IMG/VR virus record: IMGVR_UViG_3300009703_000007
Span: 30,121-94,120 of that record
Source of the DNA: a virus
Strand: one strand, 5' to 3'
DNA: 64,000 nucleotides
The notes beneath the pieces were generated by a model that saw only the letters and a program-made list of their open reading frames with translations, did not search any database and had not been told where the DNA came from. Positions 35,111 through 63,994 of the stretch are shown piece by piece; positions within the stretch are counted from its first letter, which is position 1, and every line of letters starts with the position of its first letter. The position numbers and the translations under genes were made by a program.

Positions 35111-35155
35111 AGAAAAGGAGACGCGCATGACGTGCTCCTCCTTTTCTTTTTTCAG
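35109..35155. terminator. Bidirectional terminator between convergent genes
   Basis: Perfect 12-bp stem AAAGAAAAGGAG (35109-35120) with CTCCTTTTCTTT (35138-35149), a 17-nt loop and T-runs on the + strand (TTTTTTC) and a T-rich 3' arm on the - strand. It lies between the sigma factor (+) and spoVR (-) and would stop both transcripts. Confidence 0.85.
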
Positions 35156-36681
35156 TCGACTAGGTGCATAGCAGCTTCGATGAAGTCCACCAATTCATCT
35201 TGGTGGACGGGCGAAGCTTCTTCTGACCACGTTGCTGTTCTCACGAGCACCTTACGCCCCCACATCTGAGCTAGTGCGCTGATTACGTCAACGGCACTAG
35301 AACGGTGTACCTCGGAATCTCCCAGATCCATCGCTTGCTCTATCAGTAGTTCTCGTCGGTTATCATGATTGCCATCGATTACTCGAAGTACAGGCTGTCC
35401 ACGGAAGGTGATACTGCTCACCAACGCATCCCGTATATCACGCCAGTCGTTCGTTTCTAGAACGATCTCGCCGTCAGATCTACGTTCGCTGTAAATGAAC
35501 ATGAGATGTTCCTCGACGAATTCTCTGTCGATGAACTCCTGGAGAAACTGAGCGTCGTTGTGTGTTCTACGCACTTCGAAGATCTTCTCCATCCCCTTCA
35601 TAGCTCCCGTGTCCCATTCCTTTCTCTTGACACGGTCCGTACACTCTTCCCACTCCTTGCCAAATCGCCCCTTGTCCCAACGCATCTTGATGTGCTGGAA
35701 CAACTTCCAGCCCAGCGCGTAGACGTTGAGACTGCTTTGCGGCCAATGCACCACTCCCGAATGATGACTGGCGTATGCTACGGCTTCGTTGCCTTCAGCG
35801 TATTCATCCATCAACGTAGTGTGCCAAGTCACTGCCCACCCCTCGTTCATGATCTTAGTCATGCCCTGAGGGTAGAAGTAGTAGGACTCCTCTCGGATCA
35901 TCGCAAGGATGTGGCGTTGCCAGTCCTTCATTTGGCCGTGTGCGATCAAGAATCCCAGGATGTCCCTTTCAGGTTCTGGAGGAAACTTAGTCTCCTTCCT
36001 GATCGCCGCGACGTACGCTTCCCGCTGTTCACAGATGTACGACGAGGGGTTCATGTAGGCCTGAAGATCTGGGTCGTCATCGTGGAATCGATGTGGGTCG
36101 AACTCCGTTGTACGGATGTCTGGGAGACTTCCTGTGTTGTCCTCTACGGCCAGCCTATCCTCGAATCCTGCTCTGTATGGCGCGTACGGGTCGATAAAGT
36201 TTTGGACACAGAGACACAGGTCGATCCATTTTTCTACGGCTTCTTCACCTACTCGATCAATGATTCGAGACACTCGTACCGCGTGATCCGCCATCATCTT
36301 AACAGACTTACGGTTGGTGTGCTGGAACCACTGGTTGTTCTTGAAGAAGTCGACGTGCCCGTAAACGTGTGCCATCACCAATTTCTGATCAATGTCCAGG
36401 TTGCCTTCCATTAGGTAAGCGTAACTGGGATCTGAGTTGATGACCATCTCGTAGATACGAGATCTGCCCCAACGGTAACGTTGCTGTACGGATTCGTACT
36501 CCTGTCCGAACGAGTAGTGCGGGTACCTTTGGGGGAACCCTCCGAATGCGGCTAGTGCCGACATCTCCTCTGAGGAGACCAGAATGAACTCTACAGGGTA
36601 GAAGTCCAATCCAGCGTCCTCAGCCAGCTCCGCTATCTTACGAACATGCGGCGCCAGCTTTGCTTCGATGATTTCACTCAT
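35152..36681 (-). CDS. spoVR: SpoVR family protein
   Basis: The product has 509 residues, the same length as bacterial SpoVR/YcgB proteins. Signatures include AHVYGHVDFFKNNQWF (103-118), EEAVEKWIDLCLCVQNFIDPY and, near residue 285, MNEGWAVTWHTTLMDEY. In bacteria SpoVR is encoded with PrkA and YeaH and is linked to stress adaptation and, in Bacillus, spore cortex formation. Its biochemical activity is not settled. Here it is the last gene of a minus-strand operon with prkA and the DUF444 gene, overlapping the latter by four bases. It appears intact, with no frameshift. Confidence 0.9.
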   Translation of the reverse strand: MSEIIEAKLAPHVRKIAELAEDAGLDFYPVEFILVSSEEMSALAAFGGFPQRYPHYSFGQEYESVQQRYRWGRSRIYEMVINSDPSYAYLMEGNLDIDQKLVMAHVYGHVDFFKNNQWFQHTNRKSVKMMADHAVRVSRIIDRVGEEAVEKWIDLCLCVQNFIDPYAPYRAGFEDRLAVEDNTGSLPDIRTTEFDPHRFHDDDPDLQAYMNPSSYICEQREAYVAAIRKETKFPPEPERDILGFLIAHGQMKDWQRHILAMIREESYYFYPQGMTKIMNEGWAVTWHTTLMDEYAEGNEAVAYASHHSGVVHWPQSSLNVYALGWKLFQHIKMRWDKGRFGKEWEECTDRVKRKEWDTGAMKGMEKIFEVRRTHNDAQFLQEFIDREFVEEHLMFIYSERRSDGEIVLETNDWRDIRDALVSSITFRGQPVLRVIDGNHDNRRELLIEQAMDLGDSEVHRSSAVDVISALAQMWGRKVLVRTATWSEEASPVHQDELVDFIEAAMHLVD

Positions 36682-37847
36682 GAAAGAAGGGTCCTTATTG
36701 CTTCAGGTAGTTGATCGAAGTCAGTCATCAGCGCTACACGGATGTAATCAGCAATTTCGACTGCAGCGTTGGGTTGTTCTCTCCATTGGCTGAGCAGGTG
36801 GTGAAAATCCCTCCCATTCGACTCACACACCTGTGTATACCCGTAGAGAGCGAGTGAAGGGATGAGGTCTATCAGCGTGCTGAGATAGGATGGGAGGTCA
36901 GAAGAGAAGCAGTCACCATCTCCGTAATGGAAGATGTAGATGTTCCACTCCTTAGGGTCATAACGCTCCTTTATGATCTTCTGGGTCAGCTGCAGCGCCG
37001 ACGTCATCAACGTTCCTCCGCCCGCTGTTGTTCTCAGAAACTCGTCTCTAGTAGCTTCCCAGGCTTGGTGATCGTGTAGTACGTAAACGGACTCTTGTTT
37101 CCCGGCGTAGCAGTGTTCGATCCACAACTCCAACCAGTAGGATGCGGCATGGGCTAGGGCCGCTCTGTTTCCCCACGACATAGACGCTGAGACGTCACGT
37201 AGAAAGAAAACCACCGCCTTGGACGTGGGCCTAAGGATAGGCTTGATCGTTCGGTAGCGGAAATCATCGGGAAGAGGCAGAATGACGGGATCTTCTTCGT
37301 CATACACGCCTTCCGCGATGCTGCGGATGAGTGCCTGTATGATGGTATCCTTAGGGATAATCATTACGTCTGGGCCGACGTGCGTTTTACCGCTATACTT
37401 ATGGCCTACTACTTCCATCTCTCCACTGTGCTTTCGCACCATGTTGGGAAGCTCGAACTTTTCACCTAGAAGCTTTGCCAGCTCATCTCGGGTAAGCTCG
37501 AAGTCCGTAAGTCCATGTTCGCCGGGCTGGTCACCTGCCCCGGTGCCTCCCCTACCTCCTGGAGATCCAGGACGAAGGATATCTCCAGGCTGGCCACTGA
37601 CTCCGTTTCCAAAACCGTACCCCTTACCGTCTCCGCTGCTATTATTCGGTCCGAAACGGATACGCGGCAGGTTGATGCGCGGAATAGGCACCCGAACCTT
37701 TTTCTTTCCCTGGTGACCCACGAACGAATCGTCGGTCATGTACTTCTCGAGGTCCTTGCGAACCTTTCGCTTCCCTATATCCCGGAAGCGTTTGTGATTT
37801 CTTTTGTTGATGCCCTCTACGTCAGGCCGGACTCTGGAATCAGACAT
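36678..37847 (-). CDS. yeaH: DUF444 family protein (YeaH/YhbH) with a VWA-like domain
   Basis: The product has 389 residues. The N-terminus is basic (RKVRKDLEKYMTDDSF), followed by IPRINLPRIRFGPNN, a Gly-rich linker (about 75-108) and ELTRDELAKLLGEKFELPN, as in YeaH/YhbH. Residues from about 205 form a VWA-like fold with a MIDAS-type DVSASM and a TTAGGGTLMTSALQLT segment. Bacterial YeaH acts with the PrkA kinase in stress response. AGGAAG lies before the ATG. The gene lies between prkA and spoVR as in bacterial genomes. The family assignment is firm; the role in infection is not known. Confidence 0.9.
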   Translation of the reverse strand: MSDSRVRPDVEGINKRNHKRFRDIGKRKVRKDLEKYMTDDSFVGHQGKKKVRVPIPRINLPRIRFGPNNSSGDGKGYGFGNGVSGQPGDILRPGSPGGRGGTGAGDQPGEHGLTDFELTRDELAKLLGEKFELPNMVRKHSGEMEVVGHKYSGKTHVGPDVMIIPKDTIIQALIRSIAEGVYDEEDPVILPLPDDFRYRTIKPILRPTSKAVVFFLRDVSASMSWGNRAALAHAASYWLELWIEHCYAGKQESVYVLHDHQAWEATRDEFLRTTAGGGTLMTSALQLTQKIIKERYDPKEWNIYIFHYGDGDCFSSDLPSYLSTLIDLIPSLALYGYTQVCESNGRDFHHLLSQWREQPNAAVEIADYIRVALMTDFDQLPEAIRTLLS

Positions 37848-37855
37848 TGCTTCCT

Positions 37856-37905
37856 AATAGTAGTGTCCTCCCCCGCCGCTAAGTGCGGAGGAGGAGACCA
37901 CTATT
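37856..37905 (-). other. Large hairpin between prkA and the DUF444 gene
   Basis: About 50 bases fold into an imperfect hairpin: outer arms AATAGTAGTG and CCACTATT, inner TCCTCC with GGAGGA, and CCGC with GCGG around the loop. No T-run follows on the - strand. The 3' end lies just before the AGGAAG ribosome site of the DUF444 gene. It may be a processing or attenuation element that makes prkA expression differ from the two downstream genes. Confidence 0.55.
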
Positions 37906-37915
37906 GGTTATGGGG

Positions 37916-39982
37916 TTACTTGCTCTCACCTCGAGCGAACACGGATGCCACGTACGCCAGGGCGTCCTTGGCGCAAACCTTGCAGTACCCGTGATCAGAG
38001 ACCAGACGCGCCTTTACGACGTCGATCTTCTCCTGTGTATCTTCGGACACGGCACCAGGGGTGACGAGCGAAGACAAGTGGACGACGTCCTTCTGCTTGT
38101 CGAACAGATATCGCTCCACCGCACGACGCATGTTGTCGTTCGTGGTGTAGTCGATGACCTTTCCCTTACGTTGCTGAATACCGATCCAGGACATCAGCTG
38201 CCCGCGATGGTCGGACTTGTTGGAGGTGTGAACCTCCGCCATGGCCTCGATCGCCGACATGAACTTCTCGTCCGGCTCTTCATCCTTCCCTGTGGTTGGG
38301 TTGCGGATCTTCTCCTTCGAGATGTACGCCGAGATGGAATCGATGTATCGTTCGAACACCTGCTGAGCCTGAGCCGGATCCGCGGCGATTGCTCGCTGCA
38401 CATCCGTCTGAGCCTTCTCCTTGTACTCACCCTCTACCTGCTCCAGCAGGGTCATGAATTGCTCTCGCTCGTCAGCGCTGGCGAGAGGGAGTCGTGAAAG
38501 AACGCGCTTTGTATCCTGGAAGAAGTTCCAAGGGTTGACGCACCCCTTCACCGTGTTTCGAGTGATGACGTTGTCGAAGACGTCCTGGAGGGTGCGCGGA
38601 GAAATGCCTCTGTCCATGCCCTCTCGCTTGCCGGCCTTTCGCATCTCCTTTACGGTTTCGTCCGTGAAGCCGTCGACGTGCTGTCCGTCGTAGAGCTTGA
38701 CCTTCTGCATGACGGTGACGACTCCACCCTTCGGCTCGTCCAATCGAGATGCCACAGCGAACATAGCCGCCATGTCGTAGGTGTGGGGGGCGATGTGCAC
38801 CCCACGGTCCTTGATATCTCGTTCGTAGATGCGGGCTTCCTGCGACATCTTCGTCACGTATGGGATCTCCATCGCTACCGTTCGGTTGCGCAGAGCCTCC
38901 ATGTATTCATCCGACTCCAACTTCTTGAGCTCTGGCTCGTTGTTGTGGCCGAGGATGACTGTGTCTACCGAGCACTGGGCGAACTTCTTCGGCTTGATCA
39001 TACCTTCTTCCGAAGCCGTGAGCAGGTCGTAGAGGAACGCTGTGTCCAGCTTCAACAATTCGACGAATTCGATGATGCCTCGGTTGGCCACCTGGAATTC
39101 TCCGTCGAAGTTGAAGGCACGTGGATCCGAATCGGAACCGTACACCGCGATCTTCCGGTAATTGAGGGAACCTGTCAGCTCAGTGGCATCCTGGTTCTTC
39201 TCGTCCTTCGGCTGGAAGGTACCGATGCCGGACCGGTTCGACTCGCTCAGGAACATCCGTGTGACCACGACGTGGTCGGCCAGCTTGGACCAGTCGCCCT
39301 TGAGCGCCGTCATCAACTTGGTGTAGACCAGGTTGGACAGAGGGTCCAGATCTCCCTTGAACGTCACCCGGCCCTTGCCGCCGGCCTTGACCGCTTCGAC
39401 GAAGGCCTGGCGGTTGTCTGGGTCGATGACGTAAATAGGGTCGTGGCTCATGGGAGCCTTGATCTCACGTACACCCTTTCCGAAGATCTCGTCGTAGTCG
39501 GCCTCTGCGAGGTGCTTGGTACGCACCCACTTGAACGTGTAGAGACGGCCTTCTCGAGTACGGCTGTACGCAGCTAGGCCCTTCTTGAATAGGCGGGCGA
39601 TCGTGGACTTCGCCGAGCCCACAGGACCATGGAGAAGCAGGATGCGCTTCGCCGTAGCGCCACCGTTGGCTGCCGACTGCAGCTTGGTCATGAGGCGCTC
39701 GATGTGGATCTCCGCACCGTACAGCGCGTCCGCTCCGTCGAAGGGGTCTCGGAAGAAGAGGAACTCCGTGTGCTTCCTCCCGAACTCGGTGAACACCTCG
39801 GTACCGTGCGACATGATCATGTCGAACAGTCGAGCATGCGCTCTTCGGCTGAGCGTAGGCTCTGCGTAAACTGCGTTGAGGTACTCCGGTAGGGTAAGGG
39901 TTTCCTCCAGAGCGGAGGTTTCCATTCCAGCTCGTCCACCCTGAATCATCGCCAGAGCGTCGAATACTGTCTTTTTAGCCAT
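37916..39982 (-). CDS. prkA: PrkA family serine protein kinase (YeaG-like)
   Basis: The product has 688 residues, slightly longer than the usual 630-645. An AAA+ part carries a Walker A motif GPVGSAKST (119-127), followed by YTFKWV and PIYVIDPDNRQAF. The region after it (LTGSLNYRKIAVYGSDSDPR, FQVANRGIIEFVELLK) and the C-terminal kinase-like part match PrkA. PrkA/YeaG kinases act in sporulation, stress and nutrient responses of bacteria. AGGAG lies nine bases upstream of the ATG. Codons are visibly enriched in C/G endings, much like the capsid gene, suggesting strong expression or a distinct origin. It is the first gene of the prkA-DUF444-spoVR operon. Confidence 0.92.
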   Translation of the reverse strand: MAKKTVFDALAMIQGGRAGMETSALEETLTLPEYLNAVYAEPTLSRRAHARLFDMIMSHGTEVFTEFGRKHTEFLFFRDPFDGADALYGAEIHIERLMTKLQSAANGGATAKRILLLHGPVGSAKSTIARLFKKGLAAYSRTREGRLYTFKWVRTKHLAEADYDEIFGKGVREIKAPMSHDPIYVIDPDNRQAFVEAVKAGGKGRVTFKGDLDPLSNLVYTKLMTALKGDWSKLADHVVVTRMFLSESNRSGIGTFQPKDEKNQDATELTGSLNYRKIAVYGSDSDPRAFNFDGEFQVANRGIIEFVELLKLDTAFLYDLLTASEEGMIKPKKFAQCSVDTVILGHNNEPELKKLESDEYMEALRNRTVAMEIPYVTKMSQEARIYERDIKDRGVHIAPHTYDMAAMFAVASRLDEPKGGVVTVMQKVKLYDGQHVDGFTDETVKEMRKAGKREGMDRGISPRTLQDVFDNVITRNTVKGCVNPWNFFQDTKRVLSRLPLASADEREQFMTLLEQVEGEYKEKAQTDVQRAIAADPAQAQQVFERYIDSISAYISKEKIRNPTTGKDEEPDEKFMSAIEAMAEVHTSNKSDHRGQLMSWIGIQQRKGKVIDYTTNDNMRRAVERYLFDKQKDVVHLSSLVTPGAVSEDTQEKIDVVKARLVSDHGYCKVCAKDALAYVASVFARGESK

Positions 39983-53342: not shown

Positions 53343-56300
53343 TTATCCACATCCCGTGGTTTCTCCACAGCTCTGGCAGGTGTAGCACGATCCTGCACGG
53401 ATGGCTATACCGCCACAATTATGGCACGGTTGGTTGTCTCCGAAGTCAGTTCTGACGTCAGAAAAGTTTACCTCGTCGTATTGCACTAATTCCTGTGTGA
53501 GACCTCTTACGGTTACCTCTCCAGAGGACAGCTGATCCAAGTATCGGGCCACATAGTCTACTATGGACGACGCAAAGCGAATATTCTCATTCTGCGTTAT
53601 GCCTTGTGGGGCGAAGTTAGCTCCACGTAGTTTGGTAGTGATAGCGTCTAGTGGCACGCCGTGTTGTAGGCCTATAGACATCATTACCGCTACGGCGTCT
53701 AGAAGGCCGCTAATGGTAGACCCTTCCTTAGAGCAGTTTATGAACACCTCTCCCACACCACCAGAAGGATAGAAGCCTGTGGTCACGTACCCCTCGAAGC
53801 CCCCTATAGTAAACTTGTGGACCTGTCCTGGACGTGTATCCGGCAGCCTTTTTCTAGGAGATCCTACAGGAGCCGCAGTTCTACCAGCGTTCTCATCGTA
53901 GGACTTGCCTGTACGTAAAGGCTGAGCGTCCTTACTACCATCCCGGTAGACTGCTACACACTTGAGTCCCTTAGTCCACGCAGTTTCGTAGATGTCTAAG
54001 ATGTCTTCGACTGTGGCGCTACTGGGCAGGTTGACTGTCTTGCTAATCGATCCGGATATAAACGGCTGGATGGCTTCCAACATGTCTATGTGTGCGGACC
54101 ATGGCAGTGCCACATCAAAGTCAGCGTCACTGCTCTCGAAGGAGCACTGGAAGATACGCTGCTCATCTGCAGAAAGCTTGTTGCATCCTTGTAGTGTGCC
54201 ATACGCTAGCACGTATGCTTCGATGGCTTCGATGTCTTCCTCAGACTTATGTAGGCGTCTGCGACAGGCGTCTATTACCGTTGGATTTGCCAACTGCATG
54301 ACGCCACCACCCACCAGCGTCTTGAACTTACGAAGGGCAAGCTCCGGTTCGCAGCCTGTAGTGTCACAACCCATAGCGAATGATATAGTTCCAGTAGGAG
54401 CTATGACTGATATCTGCGCGTTTCTAGGTGCTACATCGCTGGTAACAACTGTACTCCATGCGTCACTTGCAGCGAGTGCTAGCAGGTTAAGTGTGGTGAT
54501 GACACCTGGGGAGCTGATAGCCTGCACAGTTTTTTCCAAATCTGAATGGGCGTTCTCGTGCAACCTCAGCACTTCGCGCATGTTACCAGGATCTACTCCC
54601 TTAGCAGTACCTACGTCCCAAGTTAGGCTAATGCTCTTTTTGTACCCTGTAGCAGTCAGCAAGCTGGCTAAGCTAGCAGCTACCGCCCTCCCCTCAACTG
54701 AGTTGTACGGTACGCCCATACTCATGAGCAGCGCACCCAAGTTGGTATACCCTAAGCCCAGCGTTCGGTACAGTATGGAGTTCTCAGCTATCTTAGCTGT
54801 AGGGTAGTCAGCGCCACCCACGATTATGTCCATAGACAGTACTGCGTACTCTACGTCTTGCACAAACCGGCTTATGTCGAATGTGTTGTCTTCTATGTTG
54901 TAGTACTTCAGTAAGTTGAAGGACCCTAGATTGCACGCAGTGTCGTCTAGAAAGAGGTACTCTGAATTAGCTACCACTACGGAGTGGGTGCCTGTATCCG
55001 TAAAAGATGAAACCCCGAAGTTGTGCGTTCCTTCTACAGTAATGTCGTAGACAGGTACGGCTTCCTCTAGTGTTATGTGCTCTACGGAAGCAACGCGGTC
55101 GTTAGTCAGGTCTCGTCTTGACGAGATCCAGTCTGAGAACTTGTCCCAAGCCATGCCGCGAATTTTGCCGCCACGCGGTGAGCTAGCTGCTAGAGGTACA
55201 ATCCCCTTAAGTCCTTCATCGTGGATATGCTTGTTCCACCTGCCAGGGGTGACAGCAGACTCTACAGAGGTGTGCGTACCTCGAGGCTTGGATTCTATGT
55301 CCTCCCAGGTACTAACCAGTAGCTCCTCTGGTACATCGATGTACCTTGGATTCTTTTCTCCAGCACTGTGACTGCGGACGTGCTCGACGTGCTCCTCCAG
55401 CGTCAAGTTGCTGAGAAAGTCATTGGTAGCCTTTCCGTCTACGTGGTGTACGTGCATACCTTCGGGTATGTCTCCGTGGACTTGTGTCCACATCCAGCGT
55501 GCTAACACCTGTGTGCCAGACTTTATCTTGTCTGTTGGTCGCTGATTTATGTACCCTCTATCACTGCGCAGTGCGTTTCGCCATTTGCCTATCTTACGAA
55601 GCCGGGCTCCTTCCTCGAGGTCCTGTGCTTCCACGTAAGTGTCTACGCCGTGCGTACGAACTAAAAACTTGTGCTCTGGGGTGCAAGTCAATACAATGCC
55701 TTTATCTGTGGTAACCTTAACTAGCTTGTTAGTATGCCCAGATACCCAGGCAGCTTGTATTTTTTTAAGGACAGGTAGCCGACTTTCAATATCGTAGCTG
55801 TACGCGTACGGTAGACCCTCATTAGCGTCGAATTTTCTAGACAGCTCTTGTATTTCTACACGGCCTTCAGATGTGTCTACCCGTGTTTCTCCTACAAAGC
55901 AACACGGGTTTGACGCCCTGATTCTATCCACATGGCCACTAGTATGCCACTTCTGGATAGTGTCATCATACTGCAAACCGGGGTCTCCACACGCATACGC
56001 AGCCTCAGCAACCTCTTTGAGTAACGCCGCTGCGTTGACCTTCTTGGCTACGCCTCCGTCTGTACGTCGAGTTAAGTTCCAGTTAGGGGTGACGTCATCA
56101 GTAACAGCCAGGGACATGAATCCGTCTGTGACTCTAACGGAGTGATTTGCATTCTGGTGGAACACCGACGCGTAGGCTTCTCCGTTAAGCCCGGGCGTGT
56201 AACCAGCAGCAATCAGCTTCTTAGCCTTCTCGTCCTCCGTGACCTTGCAGGTGATGAACTCCTGTATGTCAGGATGATCCACATCCAAGATCATCATGCG

Positions 56301-56960
56301 AGCAGCTCTTCGTGTAGCTCCCCCACTCTTGATAGCGCCTGCCCAGGCGTCTAGCCCTCTCATGAAGGAGAGAGGTCCGGTAGAAGTTCCTCCTGTACTC
56401 AGGGGCTCTCCTTGCGCTCGAAGCTTAGACATGTTGGAACCGGTCCCTGAGCCTCCCTTGAACAGGATCCCCTCCGTCATACCCAGCGCTAGGATGGACT
56501 CCATGTTGTCTTCTACGGAGTTGATGAAGCAAGCACTAGCCTGCTGTGATCTGCCTTCGGCTCCAAGGTTGAACCACACTGGAGAGTTCCAAAAGAACCT
56601 CTGCGACAGCACCATGTCCATAAGCCGCGTATAGCAGTCACGTGATCCTTGGAGGTCAAAGTATCCATCCCTAACTCCCCAATCACAGATGCGAGAGCAC
56701 ACTCTGTGTGCAAGGTTGAAGATACTAGTCTCTCGACGTTCTGTACCCTGTTGTCCTCTAAAATATTTGTTAGCTACAATTTGAACTGACTGGTTTGTCC
56801 AGCTCTCAGGACACTCAACAGCCTCTTGCTCAAAAATCACGTCACCGTTCGCGTCCTCTATTCTAACATCTACGTACTTCCAGGTGACGTTAGCGTACGC
56901 GTCTTTGATAGCGTTTATAGCTACCGATTCAGTCTCTCTTAAATTGTTATGAGACAGCAT
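53343..56960 (-). CDS. nrdJ: Class II (B12-dependent) ribonucleotide reductase with an intein
   Basis: The product has 1205 residues and would be 893 after splicing. Reductase motifs include FFWNSPVWFNLG (122-133), ACFINSVEDNM (143-153), FKGGSGTGSNMSKLR (167-181) and the catalytic NPC|SEYLFLDDTACNLGSFN, split by the intein between C353 and S666. The C-terminus ends in a Cys-rich tail (CHNCGG ... CYTCQSCGETTGCG) typical of adenosylcobalamin-dependent NrdJ. It converts ribonucleotides to deoxyribonucleotides without oxygen dependence. It overlaps the RuvC-like gene by 14 bases and is followed by tmk. Confidence 0.92.
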   Translation of the reverse strand: MLSHNNLRETESVAINAIKDAYANVTWKYVDVRIEDANGDVIFEQEAVECPESWTNQSVQIVANKYFRGQQGTERRETSIFNLAHRVCSRICDWGVRDGYFDLQGSRDCYTRLMDMVLSQRFFWNSPVWFNLGAEGRSQQASACFINSVEDNMESILALGMTEGILFKGGSGTGSNMSKLRAQGEPLSTGGTSTGPLSFMRGLDAWAGAIKSGGATRRAARMMILDVDHPDIQEFITCKVTEDEKAKKLIAAGYTPGLNGEAYASVFHQNANHSVRVTDGFMSLAVTDDVTPNWNLTRRTDGGVAKKVNAAALLKEVAEAAYACGDPGLQYDDTIQKWHTSGHVDRIRASNPCCFVGETRVDTSEGRVEIQELSRKFDANEGLPYAYSYDIESRLPVLKKIQAAWVSGHTNKLVKVTTDKGIVLTCTPEHKFLVRTHGVDTYVEAQDLEEGARLRKIGKWRNALRSDRGYINQRPTDKIKSGTQVLARWMWTQVHGDIPEGMHVHHVDGKATNDFLSNLTLEEHVEHVRSHSAGEKNPRYIDVPEELLVSTWEDIESKPRGTHTSVESAVTPGRWNKHIHDEGLKGIVPLAASSPRGGKIRGMAWDKFSDWISSRRDLTNDRVASVEHITLEEAVPVYDITVEGTHNFGVSSFTDTGTHSVVVANSEYLFLDDTACNLGSFNLLKYYNIEDNTFDISRFVQDVEYAVLSMDIIVGGADYPTAKIAENSILYRTLGLGYTNLGALLMSMGVPYNSVEGRAVAASLASLLTATGYKKSISLTWDVGTAKGVDPGNMREVLRLHENAHSDLEKTVQAISSPGVITTLNLLALAASDAWSTVVTSDVAPRNAQISVIAPTGTISFAMGCDTTGCEPELALRKFKTLVGGGVMQLANPTVIDACRRRLHKSEEDIEAIEAYVLAYGTLQGCNKLSADEQRIFQCSFESSDADFDVALPWSAHIDMLEAIQPFISGSISKTVNLPSSATVEDILDIYETAWTKGLKCVAVYRDGSKDAQPLRTGKSYDENAGRTAAPVGSPRKRLPDTRPGQVHKFTIGGFEGYVTTGFYPSGGVGEVFINCSKEGSTISGLLDAVAVMMSIGLQHGVPLDAITTKLRGANFAPQGITQNENIRFASSIVDYVARYLDQLSSGEVTVRGLTQELVQYDEVNFSDVRTDFGDNQPCHNCGGIAIRAGSCYTCQSCGETTGCG
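54966..55901 (-). mobile_element. Intein with an HNH homing endonuclease domain
   Basis: Residues 354-665 (312 residues) interrupt the reductase active site between NPC and SEY. It begins CFVGETRV (Cys1). Block B-like TCTPEHKFLV lies near 425, and block F-like VYDITVEGTHNFGV lies near 637. It ends VVVAN followed by Ser+1. The penultimate residue is Ala instead of the common His. An endonuclease core HVHHVDGKATNDFLSNLTLE (503-522) is of the HNH type. Confidence 0.9.
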
Positions 56961-57537
56961 TAATTCTCCGCCGTAGGGCAGCCTTTAGCCCTTTGTGTTC
57001 TTTACTTCTTATTAGCTTAATGCAGGTCTCTAGACTTTGCCTTGTGACAGGCAGTTCTAGGGAAAGCTTACAGAGTCTGTTCGCCACCTGAAGTCCCACC
57101 AAAGCAAGCCCTGCAGCGTCTGTAACGTCTGTATCTTGTGGAAGAGCGTTGCGTAGTATCTGGTTGACACAGTCTGCAACATCTTCCTTGGAGGCCGATC
57201 CGCTGCCCACAACTGCGAGCTTCATCGACTTTGGAGGTATTGTTAGTAAGGGAATGCCTTTACGGATAGCGGCTAGGCGTAGCACTCCTGCTACTTGTCC
57301 CAGCGTGTGCTGCCTACTGGCAGACCCGTGAGAAGGGCCCTCTATGGCGCAGAGCAGCGGGCTCTTTCCGATCAGTATATCTTCAGTAGAGCTAAAAATA
57401 CGTTCTAGTTTTGCGTTGACGTCGCCACCTGATGGCAGCGCGATTTTCTTGTGGGTTGCCACGAGGTCAGATGACACCAGGACTAGCCCAGTACCGTTTA
57501 GTGAAGGATCCACACCTAATACTGTATAGAGAGGCAT
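56947..57537 (-). CDS. RuvC-like Holliday junction resolvase
   Basis: The product has 196 residues. RuvC motifs: LGVDPSLNGTGLVL with the first catalytic Asp (10), CAIEGPSHGSASRQHTLGQV with the Glu near 66, and the C-terminal TDVTDAAGLALVG with Asp residues near 136-140. It would cut branched DNA during phage replication and packaging. There is no ribosome site; TAAAAT ends six bases before the ATG, so the message may be leaderless. It heads the minus-strand nucleotide operon. Confidence 0.8.
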   Translation of the reverse strand: MPLYTVLGVDPSLNGTGLVLVSSDLVATHKKIALPSGGDVNAKLERIFSSTEDILIGKSPLLCAIEGPSHGSASRQHTLGQVAGVLRLAAIRKGIPLLTIPPKSMKLAVVGSGSASKEDVADCVNQILRNALPQDTDVTDAAGLALVGLQVANRLCKLSLELPVTRQSLETCIKLIRSKEHKGLKAALRRRINAVS

Positions 57538-57614
57538 GGGTATATTTTAGCTTACTAAGACATTGGCCACGTGGCCGAAATCTTACTATTATACCTTAGT
57601 AAGGAGCTCAATTA
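57538..57614. promoter_or_regulatory. Divergent control region with palindromes
   Basis: It contains a perfect 12-bp palindrome GGCCACGTGGCC (57565-57576), CTTACTAAG (57551-57559) and a hairpin CTTACTA-8nt-TAGTAAG (57582-57603) that covers part of the AAGGAG ribosome site (57601-57606) of the + gene. On the - strand TAAAAT (57544-57549) serves the RuvC-like gene; on the + strand TATTAT or TTATAC near 57587-57594 may be the -10. Confidence 0.55.
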
Positions 57615-58556
57615 ATGGCTACAGCAGACCTCAATCAGGATCGACTCAGCTACGTCGACGCGACAGGAAAGACTCAGTTTCAGATATACTCACTGGTACT
57701 GAACGCCATCAGCATCACGGATGGCCTTTTCCTGTTTAAGATAAATGACGTGTTGGTGCCTGCGGGAGACACGTACGAGCGTGTCTGCAACATAGGTGAC
57801 CTGTCGGACTTCCTTCAGGATCGTGCCGCAGCCGTAACCGCGGGGGACTCTTACTACAGATCATCTGCTCTTACTGTCGACTACGACGACATCGAGACTG
57901 CGATAGCTGCGGCAACAGTCATTAAAGAACGTGTCAGCGCTCTTATAGAGTTGTACACGCAGTATCTCGCTGACTTCTTTGGTAACGACACTACACCGGT
58001 ACCCACAGGTGACACCACTCTTTTCGATGCTTTAGTAGCTACTGCTGAGGCCCAGCACGTAGTATATACCGCAGCACAAGCTACAGCTGCTGCTGCTATG
58101 GTGACAAAGAATGCTGCGGATGTCGCACATGCGACACTAGACCTGATCAACAATAAAGTCATACCCATTGAAGCAGATGTTACTGCCCTAGAAGCAGTTG
58201 CGGTAACATCAAATGCTGTAGCTACTTCGATACACACAGCGGCTTTAGCTACAGGGCTGGATGCTGATCCAACCTACGTATCAGTGTGGTCCACGCTGAA
58301 CGGGTTCTCTTCGGGAACCGGGACTACATCCGTAAACCAAATACAGATCGACTTGACTGCCAGATTGGCAGATATCACTGCCCTGGGCGTGTCTACAAGT
58401 ACGCTGCTGTCCAACGCCGCCTTCGAGGTGACAACGACGTCCAATGCCCTAGTTGTGGCAGATGCTGATGAAGCAGCTCAACTGGCATTGCGGACTCAAT
58501 ATGCAGCGGATGTGCTGGCTATTGACCCCACTTACCAGTTCAGCTGGATGCCCTAA
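57615..58556 (+). CDS. Coiled-coil virion-type protein
   Basis: The product has 313 residues. After a beta-type start (QFQIYSLVLNAISITDGLFL) the sequence is Ala/Thr-rich and helical with long coiled coils (AAQATAAAAMVTKNAADVAH, NNKVIPIEADVTALEAVAVT). AAGGAG supports the ATG. It is the only + gene between two - strand blocks and has its own control region. It looks like a fibre or whisker protein. Its stop overlaps the stop of the convergent gene by four bases. The function is unknown. Confidence 0.65.
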   Translation: MATADLNQDRLSYVDATGKTQFQIYSLVLNAISITDGLFLFKINDVLVPAGDTYERVCNIGDLSDFLQDRAAAVTAGDSYYRSSALTVDYDDIETAIAAATVIKERVSALIELYTQYLADFFGNDTTPVPTGDTTLFDALVATAEAQHVVYTAAQATAAAAMVTKNAADVAHATLDLINNKVIPIEADVTALEAVAVTSNAVATSIHTAALATGLDADPTYVSVWSTLNGFSSGTGTTSVNQIQIDLTARLADITALGVSTSTLLSNAAFEVTTTSNALVVADADEAAQLALRTQYAADVLAIDPTYQFSWMP

Positions 58557-59020
58557 AGTGTAACAGTACCGGACTTACGGAACTCCTTAAGTAGCTTCGT
58601 CTCATACTTAGGGCCGTTTTTCTGTATCAGGCCCGTGACGTGTTCCGCCTCTTCAGCAGAGACCAGCTCCTTAGTTATTGGATGTCGTTTTCTCCGTCGC
58701 TGTTTCGACTCTGTTTCGCCCGCACTTTTGGGCGTTGACTTGCCCCTGCGACGTGGTGGCGGCGCAGGAGTCGTAATCAGTGGCTCGGTCTCACCCCGTT
58801 CCGCCATCTTGGCGAAGAATTTTCTCGGGTTGACGGGTAATGAGAACATGGTTAGGGACCTTCCGTCTGCGTCGACAGTAGCTCCCTCTACGTGTATGAA
58901 GTCTTCCGAAGTCAAATCCATGTTGTGTACTTGGAAGACGCCGGTGGATAGAATCTCAGCAAGTTCTTTGTGTGTAAACTGCAGTGGTCCACCTCGGCTT
59001 GGTGACTTTTTGTGTGCCAT
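58553..59020 (-). CDS. Basic protein of the reverse transcriptase locus
   Basis: The product has 155 residues from the ATG at 59020, which has GAGG six bases upstream; an ATG at 59041 lacks one. A folded N-terminal part (LQFTHKELAEILSTGVFQVH, MFSLPVNPRKFFAKMAERGE) is followed by a very basic linker (PPPRRRGKSTPKSAG, KQRRRKRHP) and a helical end. The basic part suggests nucleic-acid binding. The family is not recognised. It is the last gene of the minus-strand unit that includes the reverse transcriptase. Confidence 0.65.
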   Translation of the reverse strand: MAHKKSPSRGGPLQFTHKELAEILSTGVFQVHNMDLTSEDFIHVEGATVDADGRSLTMFSLPVNPRKFFAKMAERGETEPLITTPAPPPRRRGKSTPKSAGETESKQRRRKRHPITKELVSAEEAEHVTGLIQKNGPKYETKLLKEFRKSGTVTL

Positions 59021-59041
59021 TCGAAACCTCGGACGCAGCAA

Positions 59042-59275
59042 GTTAAAGACGAATCAGTCTATGCTTGTTACTTTGTGTTCTGTGGTTAGCCTATGAGAAT
59101 TACTTTGTACTCTGTGTCAGTGCTGTTTTGTACTACTAGCTTAGCGCTAGTATTTCGTCAAGCCCTGTAACTAAGACGGGCAAGATAGCCAACACACATT
59201 GCCCGAACAACTTAGTGAACGGGGAAAATATGAGTCGGTGTAGAGCACGTAACATATACTCTCACTCCTTTGTGA
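59042..59275 (-). ncRNA. Structured segment downstream of the reverse transcriptase
   Basis: These 234 bases carry two clear stems: ACTAAG (59170-59175) plus CGGGCAA (59177-59183) pairing with TTGCCCG (59199-59205) plus CTTAGT (59211-59216), and TACTAGC-TTAGC-GCTAGTA (59134-59152). Two 17-bp direct repeats (59068-59084 and 59100-59116, two mismatches) follow. Retrons carry a structured RNA next to their reverse transcriptase, normally upstream; this one is downstream. A non-coding RNA is therefore only a candidate, and the segment also encodes a possible 39-residue peptide. Confidence 0.4.
59136..59255 (-). CDS. Possible 39-residue membrane peptide
   Basis: AAGGAG lies nine bases before the ATG at 59255, 20 bases after the reverse transcriptase stop. 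The frame reads MLRALHRLIFSPFTKLFGQ then a hydrophobic helix CVLAILPVLVTGL and a short acidic end. It resembles small membrane toxins in general form. It overlaps both hairpins of the segment, so coding and structured-RNA readings compete. Confidence 0.4.
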   Translation of the reverse strand: MLRALHRLIFSPFTKLFGQCVLAILPVLVTGLDEILALS

Positions 59276-60424
59276 TTACTCAAGTTGAGCTGCGTGTAAT
59301 TCCTTAGCTTCGTTAAGCACTGGAAGAAGTTTATCGCGTTTGGCCGGATTGACCTGGCCCATGTAATTTACCATGCCAACCAAGTGCTGGTGTAGTTGGA
59401 GACCCGAGTCGAATCCTGCTCTACCAGCTTGCGCGTCAAACCCTGTCTTCAGACAGTTGTGAACCAACGCTCTGTACTTCAAGTACTTGGTTCTCGGGAC
59501 GTTAGCATGGGCGTTTACCACCATGCCTAGTACGATCTGACGTCCACCAGATCTTTCTACTTTTGTTTTGTTGTGGTTGACTCTGAACCTGCAACCTCTC
59601 ACTATGTTGTACAGCTTTTGCAGCATCCAGTCAACTACTACACGAGGTATGGCGTGGGACGATGAGATGTCAAGATCATCGCTGTACCTCGTGTATGTAA
59701 GTTTTAGGTCTTTGGGAAATACATACTCTACCCACTCAACATCCCCACGACTTGTCACCATAACTTTGGACCAGTCGTAGTCGTAATTGCTTTGCCAGAC
59801 ACCGTCCTTAGGGAAAACCTGTCGCTTGCCTGGTAGTGTGTCTAGAAAGCTCCGTATTCTGGGATCCAGAGATTGCATAGCCGCTAGATTGCAAACATCT
59901 CCACTTGTAGGAGCCCCCTGTGGAACAGTGCCATCCTTGGTACATATATCAGCCACTACGCGCGACGCCGTGTGACTCATGCCCAGCGTTCTCAGAGCCG
60001 ATGAAACCATAAAGTATGTCGTGGTATCGAAGAACGACTCCAAGTCCATGGATATGATTAGTTTGGATCCGGTGTGCTGGTCAGCTGTGTGCCTACACGA
60101 CCTCCCACTAACGTAGGCCCCCACGTGATCCGGTTTAGGTATTCTGTGTAGTACACGCTTAGTCAGCCTCTTCTGAGCGAACTTCAGTGGACGCGAGGGA
60201 TTCCATACCTGTCGGTACTTCCCGCCCTTCTTAGGGATGCGTATGCTGGTGTACATACCATTCTTAGCCTTACTCAAGTACCATAGAAACTTGGGCGAGA
60301 CGCCCATTGCATTTGCAATAGCGCCTAGGTCGGCGGGTATAGTCGTCAGGTTAACATTGACTGCTGTTACAGCAGCCTCCAAACCTGGAGTATCATTAGA
60401 ATTCGATAATCCTGCTATTTTCAT
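59276..60424 (-). CDS. Retron-like reverse transcriptase
   Basis: The product has 382 residues. RT motifs in order: SIRIPKKGGKYRQVWNPSRP (60-79), a retron X-like AYVSGRSCRHTADQH (103-117), motif A SMDLESFFDTT (125-135), motif B VPQGAPTSGDVCNLA (167-181), motif C YTRYSDDLD (244-252), motif D NHNKTKVER (283-291) and LGMVVNAHANVPR (299-311). The layout fits retron and related RTs, not DGR RTs. An extra stretch of about 45 residues lies between motifs B and C. The start overlaps the preceding gene by 29 bases with no separate ribosome site, so translation is probably coupled. Confidence 0.85.
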   Translation of the reverse strand: MKIAGLSNSNDTPGLEAAVTAVNVNLTTIPADLGAIANAMGVSPKFLWYLSKAKNGMYTSIRIPKKGGKYRQVWNPSRPLKFAQKRLTKRVLHRIPKPDHVGAYVSGRSCRHTADQHTGSKLIISMDLESFFDTTTYFMVSSALRTLGMSHTASRVVADICTKDGTVPQGAPTSGDVCNLAAMQSLDPRIRSFLDTLPGKRQVFPKDGVWQSNYDYDWSKVMVTSRGDVEWVEYVFPKDLKLTYTRYSDDLDISSSHAIPRVVVDWMLQKLYNIVRGCRFRVNHNKTKVERSGGRQIVLGMVVNAHANVPRTKYLKYRALVHNCLKTGFDAQAGRAGFDSGLQLHQHLVGMVNYMGQVNPAKRDKLLPVLNEAKELHAAQLE

Positions 60425-60983
60425 CCTTGTTATTCTGTAGTGTTACTGCCCAATGGGACAGGCATGTCTGATCTAAAAATTCGCACCCATACTTTCCTAT
60501 ACCCCTAAAAAGAATATGTGAGCACCTGTGGCACAGCGACCCTCTATCGTTGCTGAAGTCAGTCGGTTTGCATGCTATAACCAGTGTGTAAGAGGCTCCA
60601 GCAATTTTGGTGGATAGAACGCTTTTCAGTTTACTTTTGGGCCACTCCACGTAGTGTAATTTGTCCTCTTGCTTGGACTTGCTATAGAATTCACGCACGG
60701 GTAATATGATAAACCTACTGAGGCTGAGCATCTGCAGGAATTCTGTAGATACATCCTGCAGCCCAAGCTCTTGTACCACAAGAGTCATGTCACTTTGATC
60801 CACCCCTATGACTATGCTGTTTCTTAGGTAGGTCACAGCTTTCATCTTACTGTCGGCCAGGTACAGCCGCCCGTGGAAGCCTCGTCTAGAGGGCCTCCTA
60901 GAGCTGACTGTCCTGTAACGTACGGATAAAATGCCACTGGCAGTTACATCGAACTGCACTTCTCCGTCTTTAGTTTGTATCAC
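60396..60983 (-). CDS. Unknown protein co-translated with the reverse transcriptase
   Basis: The product has 195 residues. It is mixed alpha/beta and basic in the middle (WPKSKLKSVLSTKIAGASYT). The C-terminal part has clustered Cys/His (CHRCSH ... CEFLDQTCLSHW) that may bind metal. It overlaps the RT by 29 bases and the upstream VWA gene by four bases. The coupling suggests a functional partner of the RT. The family is not recognised. Confidence 0.65.
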   Translation of the reverse strand: MIQTKDGEVQFDVTASGILSVRYRTVSSRRPSRRGFHGRLYLADSKMKAVTYLRNSIVIGVDQSDMTLVVQELGLQDVSTEFLQMLSLSRFIILPVREFYSKSKQEDKLHYVEWPKSKLKSVLSTKIAGASYTLVIACKPTDFSNDRGSLCHRCSHILFRGIGKYGCEFLDQTCLSHWAVTLQNNKDENSRIIEF

Positions 60984-62332
60984 TCGAGGCCCTTCAGTGT
61001 CACGACGGTACCCACGGAGCTGAGATTATACGCGTCTCCGGATCCGTGTTTGGAGATCATCCAAATGAACGGGCACTGCGGCATTATTTCTTTGGCGGGG
61101 CACGGTGCGTACCCGTCAGTGTAGTAGAACGCCAAGTCCGGCTCCAATTCACAGCAACGAATGATGGCGGGGTCGAAGGTAGTTCCTCCTCTACCGTCAA
61201 CATCCACCCACGTTTCATCCGCGGTCACAGTCCACTCTTTAGTTATCCGCGTGTCTGCCTGGATAGCTGTAAGTGTCATTCCTTCCTCCTGCATGAAGAA
61301 CTCTTTAAGCAGTGCGAATGCTTCCTTGAGCTCCTCATTGCTGACCGAGGCTGACGTGTCCATCATGAACACGGCGTGGAACGTCTTGTCCTTGATCTTG
61401 CCGGGAAGGAAGAACGAGGGGTCCATGGACCTGCGCTTGGGGCGCTGTACGGAACGCTGCATCGTCAAGGCGATCTTGGTTCGGATGATGTTCAGCAGGA
61501 ACGCCTGCCACGGCACCCTGTACTTCTGCCTCATCTCTTTAAGACGCTGTTGCAAGTGAGCGGGGATAGTTCCTCGCGACTTCTGGACTGCCTCGGCCGC
61601 AGACTGGATTATCTGATCGGTTTCATCTTCCAGTGCTTGGGCCAACTCGCTCATGTCTTGCGACGCCGTGTTCTGGCCGTCATCCTCTTGAACGTCGCCC
61701 TCTTTGTTTCTAGAGTTATTCTTGCCCCACTCGTTGTGGTTTTCACCCCAAGCAGCGCTAGAGAGTCCATCGCCTTTATCGTTCCCTTCTTCGTCGCCTT
61801 CACCCTCGTCGGGGGTAGGAGGTGGAGGTACAGCTAGAAGCTTGAGGACCTCGAGATATGACTCGAAGTCCGAAGCAGGCATGTTGTCTATGCCATCCTG
61901 CTCTGGCAGAAGCGGTGTGAATTCCGACTCATTGAGCATGTGCTGCACGTAGCCAGACCGTCCGTTTATTTTGCGCATTTGACCGTTAACTGCAAAGTCG
62001 GTGGCCTTGAGACACTGGTCTTTGAGTTCCTTGGGAACGTCGTCCAACTTTTGCACGCCCTCTTCTGCGTACTTCATCATCGTACGTGGGACGTGTTTGT
62101 TCTCCAAGTGCACCATCTCATGGTGCAGAGAGTAGATGAACTCACGTGGGGACAGCTTCTTGATTCCCTCAGGGTTGTAAAGTAGTTCGTAGCTGCCTTC
62201 TGTAACCGTGAGGCCCATAGTAGCAACACTCTTGGAGGCTCTGCGCGGCAGGCATGTGGCCATTGTCGCGTAGAAATCTTTGCCCTCTCGGTCCACAAGT
62301 ACCGCTAGAGCTTCGTCGAATTCGATGTCCAC
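60980..62332 (-). CDS. Zincin-motif plus VWA-like protein (DUF2201 type)
   Basis: The product has 450 residues from the GTG at 62332. Longer reading to 62476 would run through the divergent promoter and the + gene, so it is rejected. A metalloprotease-like motif SLHHEMVHLENKH (HExxH at about 71-75) is followed by a Gly/Asp/Asn-rich linker and a C-terminal VWA-like domain with MMDTSASVSNEE and a GRGGTTFDPA loop. This matches the MoxR-associated putative metallopeptidase/VWA family. No MoxR-type AAA gene lies beside it in this window. Confidence 0.75.
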   Translation of the reverse strand: MDIEFDEALAVLVDREGKDFYATMATCLPRRASKSVATMGLTVTEGSYELLYNPEGIKKLSPREFIYSLHHEMVHLENKHVPRTMMKYAEEGVQKLDDVPKELKDQCLKATDFAVNGQMRKINGRSGYVQHMLNESEFTPLLPEQDGIDNMPASDFESYLEVLKLLAVPPPPTPDEGEGDEEGNDKGDGLSSAAWGENHNEWGKNNSRNKEGDVQEDDGQNTASQDMSELAQALEDETDQIIQSAAEAVQKSRGTIPAHLQQRLKEMRQKYRVPWQAFLLNIIRTKIALTMQRSVQRPKRRSMDPSFFLPGKIKDKTFHAVFMMDTSASVSNEELKEAFALLKEFFMQEEGMTLTAIQADTRITKEWTVTADETWVDVDGRGGTTFDPAIIRCCELEPDLAFYYTDGYAPCPAKEIMPQCPFIWMISKHGSGDAYNLSSVGTVVTLKGLE

Positions 62333-62396
62333 AGTATGACTCGCTTTTTGTAGTATTTTACCTATCCTATACTTCGTAGAGAAGTAGGAGATAGCT
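62333..62396. promoter_or_regulatory. Divergent promoter region
   Basis: On the + strand CCTATCCTATACT (62366-62378) holds TATACT before the ribosome site TAGGAG (62386-62391) of the gene at 62397. On the - strand TAAAAT lies about 22 bases before the GTG at 62332. No -35 hexamers are evident. Confidence 0.45.
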
Positions 62397-63377
62397 ATGG
62401 ATATTATCCGTGATGGAAACCTGAGTCGGTTGTACAGCATGCTCCGGGGTAATCCCGAGGCGACTGAATTTGTCAAGACCGCTGATGTTCTTGGTGATAA
62501 CGACTGGCTTGCTCAGCCAGATACTGCATTTGCAGACTCTCGTAAGAGAGAGTTCCCCATTTTGGATCCCCAGCATACTGCTATCTCCATAATGTACGCG
62601 TCCAAATATGGTGCCTCGAACGAAGTGTGGGAAAGCCTACGTGTGGCAGCAGACGTGTACAACGTTGATGAGAGCTTGTTCACGGTCGTGTCTGAGAAGA
62701 CTGCTTCAGTGAGGTCTGAGCCTGTAGCGTATCTTCTGGAAGACCTTAAGAGGTACCCGATCTATGGGGAGCTCTCCATCAAGCAGGCGGAAGAGTACTT
62801 GTATGAGTACGGTGCCAGCATGCATGACAACGCTAGAGAAGAATTCGGGGACAACCTTGTCAAGGTTGCTGAAGACCTGGGTGTAGAGTTGCGCCCGAAT
62901 ACGCTACGTAGAGCGGGGCGTACTGTTACGGATGTTAAGCTAGCCCGTGATATGATGTTTACCCGGTGCTACTACGCAGCCTCAGGAGAAGCCAGGGATG
63001 CATTTATGAAGATTGCTTCTGTGCTCGAAGGCGAGGAAGAAATAGCGGACTCTCGTACACAGACTGAACTGGTAGACCTTCTTAGAACTCTCGATAAGAG
63101 AGCAGGTCTAAGCTACAGCTCTAAGCTTCCTACTCCTGAGCAAACAGTGTACAACACAACTAAAGTAGCTCGAAGAGGGTGGGCTATGGGACCTTATCAG
63201 CTGACCCCCGAGAAGCTGGCCCGCATAGACACCGATATCCTTGGGGATATAATAGGTGACGACATGGTAGATGCCATGTGTGACCGCGGTGAGTTCAACA
63301 TCCGAGAGGCTTCTGCCCTGCTGGGAACTCTACCGAGAGACATCCAGGACGCAGTTGCTCGAACGTTTAGGCTCTAA
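62397..63377 (+). CDS. Virion-type protein
   Basis: The product has 326 residues, mainly helical. Residues about 38-72 (PDTAFADSRKREFPILDPQH then TAISIMYASKYGAS) follow a pattern seen in head-internal proteins of large phages. K-x-A motifs (FVKTADVLG, NLVKVAEDLG, FMKIASVLEG, KVARRGWAM) are like those of the genes at 2.7-13.8 kb. TAGGAG lies six bases upstream. It starts a new + strand unit near the end of the window. The function is unknown. Confidence 0.65.
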   Translation: MDIIRDGNLSRLYSMLRGNPEATEFVKTADVLGDNDWLAQPDTAFADSRKREFPILDPQHTAISIMYASKYGASNEVWESLRVAADVYNVDESLFTVVSEKTASVRSEPVAYLLEDLKRYPIYGELSIKQAEEYLYEYGASMHDNAREEFGDNLVKVAEDLGVELRPNTLRRAGRTVTDVKLARDMMFTRCYYAASGEARDAFMKIASVLEGEEEIADSRTQTELVDLLRTLDKRAGLSYSSKLPTPEQTVYNTTKVARRGWAMGPYQLTPEKLARIDTDILGDIIGDDMVDAMCDRGEFNIREASALLGTLPRDIQDAVARTFRL

Positions 63378-63994
63378 TGGAGTTGGCCCGCAAACAAGAC
63401 ACGGCGCCGGCATACGAATTGCTGGCTGCCTTGTCCGCGGATATACCTGGTTACGTCGATTGGGAGCCTGAGGCCCTGTTCGAAGAACTAGATGATGGTG
63501 GTGTGTCCACGACTGCGCTGCTGCAAGACAAGCTGATGGCTGCTATTGCAGTGAAGCATACAGATGAATTTTACCTGTCCCCGCAGGTGTTTGAGAATAC
63601 CTGCACTGCCTTTGGTAATGCTGTGGTACTTGTGGACGTAGTACAGGAGCCAGAAGTACGCCACATGGCCTGGGCTATGTACGAAGTCAACAAGTTACGC
63701 GAGGATACAGACAAGTCTCTCAAAGAGCCTACGGAAGAGATAGCCAAGTTTGTAGCAGTTGTACTACATAGAGCTGGACTCGTCGTGGCTCCTGACCTTC
63801 TCAAGTTTGCTCAAGAACATCTGGACGACTTGAACCACAATGCAGCGCTCGCTACCGCAGTACGAAAACAGTGGTCCAAGGTGCAGATGTCCAAATTATC
63901 TTCAGCTTCAGTTGAAGAAGACCCTGTTGGTGTGCAGATATCCAGACTTCTAGAAGTAGCTCTGTATATCAAAGCTAGAAAGACTCCTAGATAA
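63377..63994 (+). CDS. Virion-type protein
   Basis: The product has 205 residues and starts in a TAATG overlap with the preceding gene. It is helical (TALLQDKLMAAIAVKHTDEF, AMYEVNKLREDTDKSLKEP). Its stop lies six bases before the window end, so the unit may continue beyond it. No family was recognised. Confidence 0.65.
   Translation: MELARKQDTAPAYELLAALSADIPGYVDWEPEALFEELDDGGVSTTALLQDKLMAAIAVKHTDEFYLSPQVFENTCTAFGNAVVLVDVVQEPEVRHMAWAMYEVNKLREDTDKSLKEPTEEIAKFVAVVLHRAGLVVAPDLLKFAQEHLDDLNHNAALATAVRKQWSKVQMSKLSSASVEEDPVGVQISRLLEVALYIKARKTPR

Follow-up and report, generated by a model that had tools for sequence, protein, structure and literature searches.

The reverse transcriptase (RT) gene at this locus raises a key question: does it belong to a retron, to a weapon turned against rival phages or the host, or to the phage's own equipment for DNA synthesis? 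The stretch of DNA that we analysed, hereafter the window, is 64,000 nucleotides long and corresponds to positions 30121-94120 of a virus record of 158,120 bp. The features of the locus are presented in Table 1. Because the stops and starts of neighbouring genes overlap, U, the partner gene P and RT make up one closely packed same-strand run, of which U is the first gene: the U stop and the GTG start of P share 4 nt, and P and RT share 29 nt (60396-60424, the first 29 bases of RT). The latter overlap is exactly the one reported in a preliminary description of this DNA, in which a Cys-containing protein of 195 residues had been noted beside a retron-like RT. The RVT_1 match indicates that RT is no chance ORF, and in a codon usage comparison the P frame obtained the top score among the six frames.

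Table 1 Features of the RT locus (positions are those of the window)
Feature	Positions	Strand	Description
g205	63377..63994	+	Conserved flank
g326	62397..63377	+	Conserved divergent flank; serves as family marker
U	60980..62476	-	DUF2201 metallopeptidase-vWA protein; Pfam DUF2201_N 1.1e-17, DUF2201 2.1e-11
Partner P	60396..60983	-	195 aa, GTG start, 5 Cys
RT	59276..60424	-	382 aa, retron-class reverse transcriptase; Pfam RVT_1 2.3e-13
ORF-free segment	59042..59275	none	3' of RT, where relatives have gene D
162-aa ORF	58553..59041	-	Cys-free; likely true start ATG 59020, behind GAGG ribosome-binding site
g313	57615..58556	+	Conserved flank, far side of cassette
RuvC-like resolvase	56947..57537	-	Conserved flank; Pfam 7.8e-16

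To which class of RTs does the protein belong? The retron-type motifs named in the preliminary description, PQGAPTS (residues 168-174) and YSDD (247-250), are both present, and profile searches against the RT classes agree with the retron-type assignment made there. The window RT matches the PADLOC retron RT models at 1e-57, NCBIfam retron TIR at 5.4e-50 and retron Ec86 of the PDB at 5e-21, whereas the NCBIfam scores for group II (2.2e-6, far under the cut-off) and Drt2 (0.015) fall far behind, and a group II intron or DRT class for RT was ruled out by these profiles. Retron models likewise match 22 of the 22 scanned members of the phage clade described below, with RT_XIII as the best model, and the best retron models comprise RT_XIII, RT_other, RT_outgroup, III-A, XI and XII. 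Judged by its sequence, RT is a member of the retron class. Between motif B and YSDD the window RT has a lineage-specific insertion of ~44 aa (about residues 195-238, about 59711-59842, minus strand), longer than in all other clade members; another subclade carries, in place of this insertion, a Cys/His insert ahead of motif A.

Relatives were sought in viral contigs and in bacterial and archaeal genomes by alignment-based scans. These succeeded, whereas patterns taken from single sequences of RT, P and U gave no hits, owing to the high divergence of the family; for P, the aligned sequences varied too much to be used in scanning. Together with the window RT, 34 distinct viral RTs form a clade of 35 (SH-aLRT 100) that has zero cellular members and whose sources are large uncultivated phages in every case (35/35). 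The RT trees were built from sampled sequences with no outgroup, so that an origin of the clade inside or beside the bacterial retrons is not readable from them. In all 14 large contigs tested there is exactly one RVT_1 domain, and it lies within the cassette. Sister RTs of the phage clade (L033:5491-6840 and L041:5677-6969) have an N-terminal Cys-rich extension within the RT ORF, which suggests that a counterpart of P or D is fused to these RTs.

The arrangement of the genes around RT is nearly fixed. Synteny comparison found the order U, P, RT in all 34 other clade members, and the coupled partner of the preliminary description is accordingly a constant companion, a protein in the P position being present in 34/34. 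In 33 of these 34, P either directly adjoins the start of RT or overlaps it, the exception being L040, where 256 nt and a small ORF separate the two. On the 3' side of RT, D, a Cys-rich protein of about 430-530 aa that mostly overlaps the RT end, is found in 33 of the 33 members whose contig is long enough. The flanks g205, g326, g313, RuvC and ribonucleotide reductase are common to most members with contigs reaching them. The window phage has all of the flanks together with U, P and RT, but D is present neither at the cassette site nor elsewhere in the record by profile search, at a sensitivity with which D proteins of weak conservation reach only 2e-3 and a highly divergent D could be missed. 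No D remnant was detected in the segment 59042-59275. The neighbouring 162-aa ORF, for which no relatives were found, was considered as a shortened D and rejected, as it is Cys-free and shows no homology to D by any test. Thus, the P-RT unit is able to exist without D.

These data raise the question of whether the RT was acquired repeatedly or has descended with the phages that carry it. The distance between RTs follows the distance between core genes (Mantel rho 0.70, 0/1000 permutations), and the mean identity of RT (0.40) lies beside that of the core flanks g326 (0.41) and g205 (0.36); divergence is faster in P and D than in the core genes. The catalytic D127 and Y247-S-D-D250 of the window RT are intact, and a motif table of the clade gives D127 and Y-x-D-D as invariant in 35/35 RTs. 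The active site of RT is therefore intact and under purifying selection, and RT has been inherited vertically in stable linkage with P. Near-fixed synteny and vertical inheritance argue against a defence module that moves freely.

The proteins encoded around RT give few clues to their function. A C-terminal C-x2-C-x(10-12)-C-x6-C motif is present in 35 of 35 P proteins, and in the window P it reads C-x2-C-x12-C-x6-C at residues 151-174, the same place as in the family; it recurs in 7 of 20000 shuffles of the P sequence and in 3 of 648 phage ORFs. The 29-nt P-RT overlap of the window is identical in L018 and L019. Against the P-family HMM the window P is top among the ORFs of the phage, at a score that is not significant (5.1 bits, E 0.65), and the hhalign comparison with the P family is likewise not significant (E 0.55), its alignment being limited to the Cys region. 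The window P is quite likely to be a strongly diverged P of this family. Neither P nor D has a convincing family match in Pfam or PADLOC, with no retron effector model matched; P and D of the relative L027 have no counterpart among 50,697 phage records; and no fold in the PDB matched the structures that AlphaFold predicts for P (pLDDT 66) and D (pLDDT 77). An orthologous U is present in all clade members, and a MoxR-like AAA gene lies near U (AAA_5 at G000:95755-97086, E 1.3e-4). By analogy with the MoxR-vWA pair of jumbo phages, for which a role in virion assembly has been proposed (PMC7824862), U is probably a virion-assembly co-chaperone and not part of the RT unit.

Is the cassette indispensable to this type of phage? 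A scan with g326 revealed 67 loci, 41 of which (not dereplicated) span the site; P-RT-D is present in 33 and absent in 8. L190, L205 and L221, a sister lineage whose loci cluster together with support of 100, keep g205, g326, U, g313 and RuvC and lack P-RT-D, and at the cassette site they carry an unrelated gene of ~390 aa that matches no Pfam family (L190:4971-6149, L205:4751-5953, L221:5198-6349 (-)). As L241 is likewise without P-RT-D, the unit is dispensable for phages of this type. In L248, a distant relative in which U and D are absent, a protein of 246 aa lies ahead of RT and overlaps it by 8 nt; this protein matches P weakly (hhalign E 0.017), and the arrangement is a hint of P-RT as the basic unit.

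Neighbourhoods of similar composition were also observed outside the family. In an unrelated 156-kb viral contig (L063:4079-10050), a D-like Cys protein, a small Cys protein, an RT, an AAA ATPase and a DUF2201 metallopeptidase-vWA protein occur together, that is, cassette-like parts in a different order, and the small Cys protein and RT overlap by 29 nt. The P-like and D-like Cys proteins of this contig match the families over short CxxC stretches only, and the parallel to the cassette is suggestive only. Retron-class RTs adjoin MoxR (bpMoxR) ATPase and vWA-type genes in L044:3216-6834 and L009:1587-5606, where this neighbourhood recurs, and in a 175-kb viral contig (L089:5887-7457) a retron-class RT with a Cys insert is followed by an RNase H gene with a 1-nt overlap.

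The genome of the window phage has several further features. Outside the window (G000:C1:125659-131058; L006:11660-17059, plus strand), RNA polymerase domains of the beta (Rpb2) and the beta-prime (Rpb1) subunit are combined in one ORF of 1799 aa; other products of the phage are a sigma-70-like factor and a DNA polymerase A that carries a fused uracil-DNA glycosylase domain. In the window, the class II ribonucleotide reductase gene (53343-56960, minus strand) is split by an intein with an HNH endonuclease, and PrkA serine kinase, DUF444 and SpoVR genes stand in a row (35152-39982, minus strand) as a phage-carried bacterial stress operon, whose PrkA shares 40% identity with PrkA of a 595-kb uncultured phage and is related to Thermus phage kinases.

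Canonical retrons produce msDNA, a 2'-5' branched RNA-DNA, and have an msr-msd ncRNA beside RT on one transcript with it. Another important question is whether the locus could be a true retron, with its msr-msd located within the window's gap of 234-255 nt or encoded in trans elsewhere in the genome. It is the retron models that give RT its highest scores, all 35 clade RTs retain the His of region X, and the segment adjoining RT (59042-59275, 234 nt, or 255 nt if the next gene begins at the better ATG at 59020) is the longest ORF-free gap within the 64-kb window. The preliminary description had called this segment structured and gene-poor and had considered an RT system with a downstream RNA. 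The segment is indeed gene-poor, but it is not significantly structured: its folding gives z values of -1.06 on the minus strand (33/200 shuffles as good) and -1.50 on the plus strand (12/200), and Rfam yielded zero family matches anywhere in the window. In relatives, moreover, the same position codes for protein D. On these three grounds a downstream structured RNA was ruled out. The gap contains an imperfect 29-nt direct repeat (59056-59084 and 59088-59116, spacing 32 nt), the core of which, CACAAAGTAA, is also found once in L006. Among the relatives, 24 of 31 have no junction of 60 nt or more anywhere along U-P-RT-D-g313, which leaves no space for an adjacent msr-msd. An ncRNA embedded in the coding genes was ruled out since synonymous conservation revealed no consistent island or trough within them, and the larger U-P spacers of L037, L039 and L040, three of the relatives that do have a longer junction, were rejected as ncRNA since these close relatives, compared with each other, conserve them as proteins.

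The residues linked to recognition of the retron RNA point in the same direction. The window RT has AxxH (A114..H117) instead of the retron NAxxH and V298-L-G300 instead of the retron VTG. In region X of the phage clade Asn occurs in 0/35 RTs, compared with 34/45 bacterial relatives, and the VTG triplet is xLG in 35/35, compared with 40/45 bacterial relatives in which Thr is kept. The Asn of NAxxH varies among retrons (62%; PMC4244168), whereas VTG, which is required for msr binding, opens region Y, the msr-binding region (PMC6868368, PMC4244168). With the Asn of NAxxH and the Thr of VTG lost and no room for an msr-msd, a place for the locus among the canonical retrons is not supported, and a true retron with its RNA in the gap or in trans is improbable.

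What, then, could such an RT be doing? A phage-borne conflict module, in line with the anti-host or inter-phage role considered in the preliminary description, in which a retron-derived RT with P (and D) blocks rival phages or blunts host defence and the fixed site is kept for a constant advantage, is possible, although we consider it doubtful. Anti-phage retrons are the nearest RT classes, P2-like phages in the annotated collection have retrons as accessory genes, P and D change faster than the core, and in the sister lineage the site is taken by an unrelated gene, all of which would fit such a module. Defence genes, however, show a patchy spread, in contrast to the near-universal presence, fixed synteny and vertical inheritance of the cassette, and P and D are without a known effector domain. 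Far less probable is that RT is mere cargo, or a relic, next to the chaperone pair of MoxR and vWA, with P as a partner of the vWA protein and not of RT. Both U and the MoxR-like AAA gene are conserved in this neighbourhood, and retron-class RTs adjoin MoxR/vWA genes in the unrelated contigs L063, L044 and L009 too, but L190, L205 and L221 keep U although the other three genes are absent there, the distant L248 has an RT behind a positional equivalent of P with no U, and the conservation of RT equals that of the core genes, which means that RT is no relic. An RT of a diversity-generating retroelement or a group II intron, both of which are known in phages, is barely conceivable here, given profiles that point to retrons, a 6-kb neighbourhood (57001-63000) with no repeat elsewhere in the 158-kb record, on which the former was rejected, and no intron RNA in Rfam.

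We therefore tentatively favour, at somewhat less than even confidence, the reading that P and RT form a two-gene unit of the phage core, passed on vertically, which does DNA synthesis for a family of uncultivated large tailed phages. P and RT would form a complex in which P, via its Cys4 site and probably with zinc, might serve as the nucleic-acid-binding or priming subunit; this complex would make DNA during infection from phage or host RNA or in an untemplated manner, with no dedicated msr-msd, and D, where present, would be a second Cys-rich accessory extending the unit in most members. With less confidence, the DNA product may serve the phage's own genome metabolism, namely repair, recombination or replication, and not immunity, and RuvC and ribonucleotide reductase are cassette neighbours relevant to such a role. 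For P-RT we place a role in genome metabolism, itself short of an even chance, ahead of one in conflict, which is the more doubtful. That reverse transcription or untemplated synthesis with a Cys4 partner and no dedicated retron RNA is a built-in infection step of the whole phage family is rather unlikely. Several observations count against the favoured two-gene unit: the sister lineage and L241 live without P-RT-D; P and D outpace the core genes in divergence, and fast divergence is common in conflict proteins; no RNase H turned up in the phage record; no fold match informs on P or D; and the window P has diverged too far to give a significant match to the family. A housekeeping role is further weakened by the DNA polymerase A and the DnaG-type primase that the phage already has.

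The locus is of interest for an intact retron-class RT that belongs to the core genes of a diverse phage family, no longer has the residues linked to recognition of retron RNA and is accompanied by proteins that fit no known family; no description of the U-P-RT-D cassette was found in the open-licence literature. If the RT is active, RNA-to-DNA or untemplated DNA synthesis would join the routine repertoire of lytic phages, and the data suggest that such copying or synthesis may be routine in the life cycle of these viruses. P-RT also offers a testable pair for the study of RT mechanism and for biotechnology.

How does the cassette compare with known systems? The known retrons of phages are mobile defence genes of an accessory kind. 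Those of P2-like phages (pro147, Ec48-type; 4LV2017, St85-type) share with the cassette a phage-carried retron-class RT and an adjoining partner, but they are canonical and accessory and have known effector families, and their RTs show only about 27-31% identity to the window RT over part of its length. With bacterial retrons the cassette has in common the RT fold and class, Y-x-D-D, the region X His, the PQGAPTS motif B and an adjacent partner gene; in contrast, the phage clade has lost the NAxxH Asn and the VTG Thr (35/35) and has no adjacent position for an msr-msd, no retron effector model fits P or D, and the cassette is a core gene unit of a phage family whereas retrons form an accessory island. 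The DRT, UG and Abi RTs could in principle have untemplated or protein-primed synthesis in common with the cassette, although their profile match to the window RT is negligible (Drt2 0.015). Finally, the MoxR AAA and metallopeptidase-vWA pair of jumbo phages shares with the locus a DUF2201 metallopeptidase-vWA protein, here U, and a MoxR-like AAA gene nearby, but the study of that pair, which proposes virion assembly, describes no RT with it (PMC7824862).
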